Of a stretch of 64,000 nucleotides of DNA, positions 1 to 11,931 are shown piece by piece (within the stretch, counting starts at the first letter, position 1; every line of letters begins with the position of its first letter). Origin of the DNA: Pseudomonadota bacterium (lineage in GTDB: Bacteria > Desulfobacterota > Syntrophorhabdia > Syntrophorhabdales > Syntrophorhabdaceae); the NCBI GenBank assembly GCA_026388255.1, contig JAPLKC010000018.1, positions 1 through 64,000 on the forward strand, given 5' to 3'. The translations under genes and the position numbers were made by a program. A model generated the notes under the pieces. That model searched no databases, had not been told where the DNA came from, and saw only the letters and a program-made list of their open reading frames with translations.

Positions 1-673
1 AATTATTGAAGCAGGTAAGGAATTGGGGGACACCATAGCCCTTCAACTCACAGAGAACCTCCAGCGGGAAGACTTAAATCCTATTGACCAGGCAAAAGGG
101 ATTCTTGCATATATTCAGGCAAAACATCCTGAGAAGGGGTACGATATAGACGGGGTGATGAGTGAGTTGGTGATGTATAATCGGAGGCCCGAAGACCTGC
201 CGGAAGAAATTGCTATCAATGTGATAGCAATTTCTGAAATCTCCGGAAAGTCAATAATGACGCTGCATCGCACAATTTCACTTTTAAAACTTTCTCCTGA
301 AATTCAGGCTGAAATCAGATCAGGAAATCTCCCTGTTTCTCAGGGTTATCTCTTTGCCGCGAACCTCGAATGTCCCGACCGCATGAAAATATTCACCGAC
401 ATTTTGAAAACTCCGGTTACTTATATTACCCTTGAAAGAATGCTTACAGCATACAAAAAAGCAAAACCTGATCCGAATAATACAAAACCCGTATCCGTGA
501 AAAAACAGGTTAAAAGCCTTGCATTAATAAAAACAGTTTTTGATAAAGGTCTTGGAACTTATATAAGAGAAGATGTTGAAAAATTCCTCTATGATTTGCA
601 GGTCTTCTGTGATCATGTCCAGCAGGAGATGCCTAACATCCCATACGGAAAGAAAAGGCCGCCACAAGTGTAA
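1..673 (+). CDS. ParB/Spo0J-like DNA-binding protein, 5' end outside window
   Basis: The frame is open from base 2, so the gene begins before the window; the TTG at 23 is only the first possible internal start. The visible 224 residues carry the ParB box (QLTENLQREDLNPIDQAKG) that in the family binds CTP and contacts the partner protein, then a helix-turn-helix stretch (ISGKSIMTLHRTISLLKLS) like the KorB/Spo0J DNA-binding domain. No parA lies next to it, and a broken paralogue occurs at 4344-4836, so a stray or plasmid-type ParB-like regulator is more likely than the chromosomal partition gene. The family is clear; the function is inferred. Confidence 0.8.
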   Translation, partial: IIEAGKELGDTIALQLTENLQREDLNPIDQAKGILAYIQAKHPEKGYDIDGVMSELVMYNRRPEDLPEEIAINVIAISEISGKSIMTLHRTISLLKLSPEIQAEIRSGNLPVSQGYLFAANLECPDRMKIFTDILKTPVTYITLERMLTAYKKAKPDPNNTKPVSVKKQVKSLALIKTVFDKGLGTYIREDVEKFLYDLQVFCDHVQQEMPNIPYGKKRPPQV

Positions 674-1958: not shown

Positions 1959-2054
1959 AATAAGAACACGCTGGCCCAAAACGGCCATCACATATTAATA
2001 GACGGAAACGAAAATATTTCCCATTCCTGGGATGAAAAGGAATGGCAATGGTAG
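1959..2054 (+). pseudogene. MazE/AbrB-type antitoxin remnant
   Basis: A strong ribosome-binding site AAGGAGGT (1946-1953) is followed by an open stretch with no ATG where one is expected (AAT at 1959). It reads KNTLAQNGHHILIDGNENIS and ends SWDEKEWQW-stop, resembling the acidic, Trp-rich tail of MazE antitoxins. The N-terminal DNA-binding part appears to be deleted. The stop overlaps the start of the mazF remnant in the usual antitoxin-toxin arrangement. It is most likely non-functional. Confidence 0.45.
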
Positions 2055-2372
2055 TGAACCTATTCGATGTGTATCTGACAAATCTTGATCCTACTGTTGG
2101 TTCTGAAATTCAGAAAACAAGGTCTTGTTTGATTATTTCACCGGACGAAATGAACAGGCACATCAGCACAGTATATAGTTGCCCCGATGACTACAGCCGG
2201 GGAAGACTATCCCACACGAATTGAATACCAATTTAAGAAGAAAAAGGCGCATATCGTTTTAGATCAGATACGAACAATAGACAAAACGCGACTTATAAAA
2301 AACCTCGGCACTCTTGATACAGAAACCCAGTTAAAGGTTATTCCCGTCTTGCAGAGGCTGTTTGCATTTTGA
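2048..2372 (+). pseudogene. MazF/PemK-type endoribonuclease toxin, frameshifted
   Basis: The first frame gives MVVNLFDVYLTNLDPTVGSE and QKTRSCLIISPDEMN, the MazF N-terminus with its conserved LDPTVGSEIQKTRP-like loop. Near 2172-2180 one extra base shifts the frame. The second frame then continues with TTAGEDYPTRIE, HIVLDQIRTIDKTRLIKNLG and VIPVLQRLF, the rest of a MazF protein of about 107 residues. Removing one base in the TATAG stretch would restore the full toxin. A MazF inactivated after its antitoxin decayed is a sensible history; a sequencing error is the alternative. Confidence 0.7.
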
Positions 2373-4343: not shown

Positions 4344-4836
4344 GCAGGCAAAGAATTAGGTGATACCAAAGCCCTTCAACTGACTGATACCAATTCGCCT
4401 TCAATTATATAACTTTGTTAACTCGTCGTCACGCTCCTCGACGTACCGGAAAATATTCCTACGTCCTGGTACCCGCTTGCGGGTGTTCCTCGTTGCCCGG
4501 GCTATCTCTGAATCCGAATTGGTATGAGAACCTCCAGCGTGGAGACTTGAGTCCTATGGATCAGGCCAAAGGAATACTTGCTTTTATTCAGGCGAAACAT
4601 CCTGTGACAAGGGGTATACTGTAAACGGGGTTATGAGTGAGTTGGTAAAATTTGAGATGAGGTCTGAAACCTTGACAAAAGAAACCGTTGACACATTGTC
4701 AACAGCTTCGGAAATCTCCGGAAAGTCAACACGGACGGTGCTTCGCACAATATCACTTTTAAAACTTTCTCCTGAAATTCAGGGCGAAATCAGGTCAGGA
4801 AATCTCCCTGTTTCTCGGGGGCATGAAAACCCGTGA
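4344..4836 (+). pseudogene. Second parB-like gene, split by a mini-element and frameshifted
   Basis: This is a paralogue of the gene at 1-673. AGKELGD and ALQLT match before the break; the reading then resumes at 4528 with ENLQRGDLSPMDQAKGILAF and continues to about 4818 (ISGKSTRTVLRTISLLKLSP). Three lesions are visible: a stop at 4341 immediately before the match, the 137-bp element at 4388-4524, and a two-base length change near 4605-4622 that creates a stop (TAA at 4622). After 4818 similarity to the intact copy ends. It is clearly dead. Confidence 0.8.
4388..4524. mobile_element. Palindromic mini-element copy 1 (MITE-like), inserted in parB-like gene
   Basis: A 137-bp insertion with 10-bp terminal inverted repeats TACCAATTCG / CGAATTGGTA. 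It is flanked by a TGA direct repeat (4385-4387, 4525-4527); removing the element plus one TGA rejoins the parB-like reading exactly as in the intact copy at the window start. It contains no coding capacity but has an internal hairpin (ACCCGCTTGCGGGT). The right end of copy 3 (55970-56091, inverted) is homologous, and a truncated copy lies at 34626. It is non-autonomous and mobilised by an unknown transposase. Confidence 0.8.
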
Positions 4837-11442: not shown

Positions 11443-11506
11443 ATCATACTAATTTATCTTCAATTTCAAAAAAAATGCATAAAAAACTTACAAAATAGAA
11501 TCTTCT

Positions 11507-11514
11507 GCCGATAA
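11507..11514 (+). promoter_or_regulatory. FliA (sigma-28)-like -10 element
   Basis: GCCGATAA is an exact match to the -10 consensus of flagellar sigma-28 promoters, 38 bases ahead of the ATG at 11553. The expected -35 (TAAAGTTT 11 bases upstream) is not well matched (TTACAAAA), so the site is only suggestive. It gains weight from the FliM-type motifs in the downstream protein. Confidence 0.4.
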
Positions 11515-11552
11515 CATCTTAACGGAGTATTATTTCGACCTTTGGAAGGGTA

Positions 11553-11831
11553 ATGGACAATCAGTTATTACAGAACGACCTTAACGCACTGCTGGGCGGA
11601 CTGTCTGAAAGCACAACAGTAGTTTCTAAAAAAGAAATAAATGGAATAGAAGACCTGTTGTCACAGGACGACCTTAATGCACTGCTGGGCGGAATGCCTG
11701 AAAAAACAATAGCAGTTTCAAATCAAATGACATTTCCCGATATGCCTGCTGAAGACACAAGTGCAGGAGAAGAATCAATGTCCCAGGAAGAAATAGACGA
11801 AATGCTGCGCCAGTTTGATAGAGATATATAA
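11553..11831 (+). CDS. Small protein with three FliM/FliN-type CheY-binding-like motifs
   Basis: 92 residues. Three segments resemble the N-terminal LSQxEIDALLxG peptide with which FliM binds phosphorylated CheY: QNDLNALLGG (residues 7-16), LSQDDLNALLGG (36-47) and MSQEEIDEMLRQF (76-88), separated by flexible Ser/Thr/Asp/Glu-rich linkers. No other domain, no membrane segment, no signal peptide. GGAAGGG precedes the ATG. No flagellar or chemotaxis gene lies nearby. It could act as a free CheY-P sink or scaffold; that is inference. The family is not known to me as a stand-alone protein. Confidence 0.75.
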   Translation: MDNQLLQNDLNALLGGLSESTTVVSKKEINGIEDLLSQDDLNALLGGMPEKTIAVSNQMTFPDMPAEDTSAGEESMSQEEIDEMLRQFDRDI

Positions 11832-11857
11832 ACACCCCTCCCCGTAAGATCATTTTG

Positions 11858-11875
11858 AGACCTTTGCAAAGGTCT
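11858..11875 (+). terminator. Palindrome after the FliM-motif gene
   Basis: AGACCTTTGCAAAGGTCT is a perfect 18-bp palindrome followed by TTAAA, 27 bases after the stop. It probably acts as a weak terminator. Confidence 0.45.
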
Positions 11876-11931
11876 TTAAATGCATATTTCCGATGATTTT
11901 TTAAAAACTATCGCACGATAAAGGTCTTTCG

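Follow-up and report, generated by a model that had tools for sequence, protein, structure and literature searches.

A short stand-alone gene encoding a FliM-like head and a CheZ-like tail behind a sigma-28-type promoter in Syntrophorhabdales

Gene, motifs and promoter

We analyzed a 64,000-nucleotide stretch of contig JAPLKC010000018.1 (GenBank assembly GCA_026388255.1), referred to here as the window, from a genome (G000) of 3.83 Mb that is 98% complete. The gene under study, G000:C18:11553-11831, is an open reading frame (ORF) on the forward strand for a 92-residue protein, MDNQLLQNDLNALLGG...LLSQDDLNALLGG...SMSQEEIDEMLRQFDRDI. An initial annotation had described this protein as three motifs of the type through which FliM binds phosphorylated CheY (CheY-P), with a sigma-28 (FliA) -10 sequence upstream. 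The gene is conserved and single-copy in its genome, a sigma-28-type site precedes every homologue, and the product, judged from its sequence, is probably an unrecognized part that catches the CheY messenger and tunes steering. The features of the locus are as follows.

11487..11490, + strand: CTTA, -35 element of sigma-28 type, with the spacing to the -10 that this genome's flagellin gene has, without the following G-TTT of flagellins
11506..11514, + strand: TGCCGATAA, sigma-28-type -10; an exact or one-mismatch copy lies upstream of every homologue
11544..11550, + strand: GGAAGGG ribosome-binding site; GGAAGGG is also upstream of a same-genus homologue
11553..11831, + strand: ORF of the stand-alone multi-motif protein, 92 residues, ATG start, stop codon included
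11562..11597, + strand: motif 1, QLLQNDLNALLG, residues 4-15, N-terminal FliM-like position; predicted helix 7-15 (FliM N-terminal profile, AlphaFold)
11655..11690, + strand: motif 2, LLSQDDLNALLG, residues 35-46, duplicate of motif 1; predicted helix 38-46 (profile, AlphaFold, DNA comparison)
11775..11822, + strand: motif 3, SMSQEEIDEMLRQFDR, residues 75-90, C-terminal, CheZ-tail-like position; predicted helix 78-90 (profile, AlphaFold)
11851..11882, no strand assigned: hairpin just 3' of the stop codon (z = -3.6), a possible terminator with a weak T tract, not called by the terminator scan

Motifs were scored with a profile built from true FliM N-termini, applied to 14 family members, with 28,000 shuffled proteins as the null. 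Motif 2 (LLSQDDLNALLG) and motif 3 (SMSQEEIDEMLR) outscored all of the shuffled proteins. Motif 1 (QLLQNDLNALLG) was weaker, its score being reached by 0.7% of shuffles, because its S is replaced by L. The three motifs of the window protein were thereby borne out; however, the three-motif layout does not define the family, since homologues carry 2 to 4 copies and motifs 1 and 2 arose by a tandem duplication that is still visible at the DNA level. AlphaFold, run on 14 sequences, predicted the short helices listed above at the motifs of the window protein and no folded domain (pLDDT 64, pTM 0.22).

The initial annotation had called the -10 an exact sigma-28 sequence and the -35 poor. The -10 stood, but the second statement was too harsh: when the promoter of the small gene is compared with that of the genome's own flagellin (TACTTAAGATTTGAGATCTGTCGCCGATAATA vs AACTTACAAAATAGAATCTTCTGCCGATAACA), CTTA lies at an identical distance, though the G-TTT is missing. 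Flagellin genes of the order Syntrophorhabdales share CTTAAGTTTT-N11-nnCGATAAT; TTAAAGTTT variants precede flgM and an HDOD/EAL gene located next to the che cluster. The latter gene (L170:16682-17899, on G000:C89) adjoins the che cluster with a sigma-28-type promoter of its own.

The word TGCCGATAA occurs 161 times in the genome, compared to 31 for the reversed word, but nearly all of 30 sites examined lie inside coding frames. Because this count was uninformative, we used a flagellin-derived position weight matrix (PWM) instead, built from 17 sites of flagellin, flgM and the HDOD/EAL gene and from none of the small genes, with 103 upstream regions from the window and neighboring loci as controls. 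A site was found 12-45 nt before the start in 17/17 homologues, at 6.2-16.6 bits, whereas 0/103 controls reached 6 bits. Flagellin promoters scored 21-31 bits, although the flagellins belong to the training set of the PWM. In the small genes the -10 is perfect or has one mismatch, the -35 is weaker than that of the flagellins, and the spacing is as in flagellin promoters. These data agree, at the level of promoter sequence, with the proposed co-regulation with flagella, and the small gene appears to be a late flagellar gene expressed via FliA.

Homologues and known systems

In whole-genome searches, 17 of 46 Syntrophorhabdales genomes had an orthologous short ORF; all 17 belong to one family, in five genera, and the products are 56-123 residues long. 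A single-protein query over genome contigs gave no match; an alignment query was needed, and this matched five named metagenome-assembled genome (MAG) records, Syntrophorhabdus included. From the named Syntrophorhabdus matches, the host family of all carriers was taken to be Syntrophorhabdaceae. The gene lies near coaD, rsmD and an ArsA-type ATPase gene in genera g4 and g10 and in one g11 genome, and beside a DEAD-box helicase gene in g11; these recurring neighborhoods support orthology. In no case was the gene seen among che or fli genes, in line with the initial annotation, which had placed the window gene far from chemotaxis genes. Divergence indicated purifying selection (nonsynonymous, dN, 0.16-0.36; synonymous, dS, 0.43-2.0; dN/dS about 0.1-0.5). 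A chance ORF was ruled out by dN/dS, the homologues and the promoter. A fragment of FliM, FliN, CheZ or FliY was also ruled out, as each homologue is a complete short gene behind a promoter of its own, and the genuine fliM of the genome is elsewhere (G000:C89).

Kept across the alignment are M1, an N-terminal SQxDL[DN]AL[LF] and a C-terminal SQ[DE]x[IV]D.[LM]L. The linkers between the terminal motifs vary freely, and middle copies are optional (0 to 2). We looked for loss of the motifs with retention of the linkers, which would have spoken against the initial annotation, and found the reverse. The C-terminal motif scored above every shuffle in 14/14 members, and the N-terminal motif was within the top 0.7% or better in all 14, with the copy of the window protein the weakest. 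N-terminal motifs begin at residue 3 or 4 in 14/14, and C-terminal copies end 4-6 residues before the protein end. Judged by the alignment, what stays invariant is a FliM-like motif at the N-terminus plus a CheZ-tail-like motif at the C-terminus, rather than a set of three equal copies. Conservation of the terminal motifs and the promoter across five genera is far beyond chance.

The N-terminal copy is like the FliM N-terminal peptide (EIDALL motif) in sequence, in its place right after the start methionine (residue 4 in FliM) and in the flexible linker behind it. It differs in consensus, with DLDALF in place of EIDALL, and there are two to four motifs per chain; the middle and SPOA domains of FliM (PF02154) are absent (no Pfam match, 14 members), so the protein could not join the C-ring. 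The C-terminal copy, with the consensus SQDQ[IV]D.LL at the very C-terminus, is like the tail of CheZ (E. coli MG1655 CheZ ends VASQDQVDDLLDSLGF). On the FliM N-terminal profile the E. coli tail scored 29.9, within the range of the C-terminal copies, and it has 4 residues after the 12-mer motif. In contrast to CheZ (PF04344), the small protein has no helical-bundle phosphatase domain, as seen from its length, the lack of a Pfam match and the lack of a predicted fold. FliN and FliY proteins with N-terminal EIDAL motifs likewise carry a CheY-binding-type motif on a flexible N-terminal arm, but they possess the FliN C-ring domain that is absent here. Phosphate-sink CheY proteins of multi-CheY systems (e.g., rhizobia) share the proposed outcome, less CheY-P at the motor; those are receivers taking phosphate, whereas the small protein would be a ligand holding CheY-P.

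In the same phylum, L192 and L195 encode FliN-type proteins whose N-terminal arm bears two tandem TQEELDKLL / SQ[DE][DE]LD[KE]L[LM] motifs.

The initial annotation knew of no described family with this layout, and our searches gave the same result. No member reached the cut-off in Pfam (14 members) or NCBIfam, no solved structure matched among PDB sequences beyond weak hits, and no such family was found in the literature on CheY-binding motifs, sinks and tandem or small proteins, most subscription papers being outside the search. Weak matches to DUF7662, sigma-70 region 1.1 and paxillin were judged to be chance or analogy. The layout thus appears to be new and free-standing, with known docking peptides, a FliM-type head and a CheZ-type tail, set without their usual domains.

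Chemotaxis context and candidate roles

CheA was present in 17/17 carriers compared to 20/29 non-carriers (Fisher p = 0.009) and FliM in 16/17 compared to 19/29 (p = 0.03), with shared ancestry ignored in both tests; the carrier lacking FliM is a genome only 66% complete. The restriction to chemotaxis genomes, which could have failed, therefore held, as no homologue occurred in a genome without CheA. The small protein, FliM and CheA were jointly absent from G004 (genus g4) and G024 (genus g10). The CheY adjoining the flagellar cheA of G000 keeps D57, T87, an aromatic residue at 106 and K109 (E. coli numbering), and its surface seems permissive for such peptides.

We lean toward a late sigma-28-type flagellar gene whose disordered product would bind CheY-P via FliM- and CheZ-like peptides, as a competitor or buffer or as a bridge. 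The EIDALL motif is a documented CheY-P site of FliM and FliY; its peptides bind the alpha4/alpha5 groove and serve as a high-affinity tether passing CheY-P to the FliM middle domain (PMC9126983). The C-terminal CheY-binding peptide of CheZ is important for phosphatase activity (Q204L, PMC12270135). The small protein would present two (up to four) docking peptides, FliM-type at the N-terminus and CheZ-tail-type at the C-terminus, each of which would become helical on docking in the alpha4-beta5-alpha5 groove of phosphorylated CheY. It would compete with FliM N-termini for CheY-P and, as a buffer or sink, lower or smooth motor switching. Alternatively, it could act as a bridge, either between two CheY-P molecules or from CheY-P to a second partner. 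With no C-ring domain and no phosphatase domain, the small protein could therefore only hold CheY-P. As each CheY has a single groove, extra copies would raise capacity and local concentration, with avidity only where CheY is clustered. From the motifs, we infer both the binding of CheY-P and the effect on the motor.

Several observations weigh against this reading. The N-terminal consensus is SQxDLDALF, with L for I and F for L relative to the FliM consensus SQEEIDALL. The promoters of the small genes score lower than flagellin promoters, and motifs of this kind are also found within long disordered stretches of other proteins in the phylum that have no obvious link to chemotaxis. The small protein is missing from 13 FliM-bearing genomes of its family and is therefore not required for flagellar motility. 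The affinity of monovalent FliM-N peptides for activated CheY is weak (about 27 uM, PMC9126983), and a sink would therefore need high abundance; the sink reading as such depends on abundance or affinity. Finally, FlhG too binds the FliM N-terminus (PMC12826062), so that CheY-P is a ligand that we infer.

The main rival to CheY-P as ligand is FlhG, a MinD-like ATPase that associates with the FliM N-terminus while the C-ring is being assembled. The peptides could mimic FliM toward FlhG, with a late sigma-28 product occupying FlhG after completion of the flagellum and so setting flagellar number or gene expression. The genome does encode a MinD/ParA-type FlhG and an SRP54-type FlhF beside a sigma factor and che genes, and late expression suits a completion signal. 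However, the C-terminal copy is like the CheZ tail in sequence and place, and the CheZ tail is a CheY ligand outside the C-ring; we know of no precedent for FlhG binding by a C-terminal copy. Overall, we regard this explanation as rather improbable.

Because the two ends differ in consensus, each could have a partner of its own. The N-terminal SQxDLDALF and the C-terminal SQDQIDxLLxEF, distinct and each conserved, could differ in specificity, recognizing for example CheY-P and, as a second target, CheX, FlhG or a CheY belonging to one of the two further CheA systems (G000 has three CheA genes). As an adaptor, the small protein would then deliver CheY-P to a phosphatase or connect pathways. CheZ was above the cut-off in 0/46 genomes of the order, CheX in 32/46 and CheC/FliY-type proteins in 6/46, and with CheX common and CheZ lacking, a separate part for targeting CheY-P is conceivable. 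Such an adaptor nevertheless seems unlikely to us, as CheX is also present in genomes without the small protein.

The motifs could also be acidic amphipathic repeats with no specificity for CheY, in a protein with another role such as a secreted or structural late flagellar protein. Motif-like repeats in other long disordered proteins of the phylum fit this, as do simple DxLLxxL helices outside bacteria, e.g., the paxillin LD motifs weakly matched in PDB sequences. We consider this quite improbable, because specificity comes from the combination of the S-Q-x-[DE]-[IL]-[DN]-x-[LM]-[LF] core, its position at the termini, the sigma-28-type site and co-occurrence with CheA.

To our knowledge, CheY-P ligands outside CheA are motor parts or phosphatases. 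It is possible, though we say so tentatively, that the small protein represents a new class of chemotaxis component: a soluble, disordered, multivalent CheY-P ligand consisting only of a FliM-type head and a CheZ-type tail, made late in flagellar expression and buffering or bridging CheY-P in bacteria without CheZ. If so, a ligand that is neither of these would demonstrate tuning of free CheY-P in bacteria through titration or bridging; it would also be a natural tool for testing how motor switching depends on occupancy of the FliM N-terminal peptides. The carriers belong to a group of swimming soil and sludge bacteria, and the finding adds an unannotated, putatively late flagellar gene to a syntrophic lineage in which motility has received little study.

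Neighboring genes and related repeat proteins

Upstream of the small gene is a rnc / radical-SAM pair, and downstream is an outer-membrane-type gene on the opposite strand. The flagellar cluster is on contig C89 and the small gene on C18, where it stands as a single gene away from the che/fli clusters.

Longer disordered proteins in other families of the phylum (L182, L183 and L185, with ORFs of about 410-430 residues; L184, L186, L188, L189, L191 and L197) contain about 4-10 similar [SGN]QDD[IL]D[AS]L[LF] repeats, and in some of them the repeats are joined to a transmembrane segment or to a conserved helical region at the C-terminus. Four that were scanned (from L186, L187, L188 and L190) had no Pfam match. 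These proteins may be further multi-copy docking proteins.

Elsewhere in the window, a coding frame at 23-673 (+) is ParB-like by eye, with a broken, diverged second copy at 4415-4836 (+). Two overlapping short frames at 2042-2372 (+), also judged by eye, jointly resemble a frameshifted MazF-type toxin gene.
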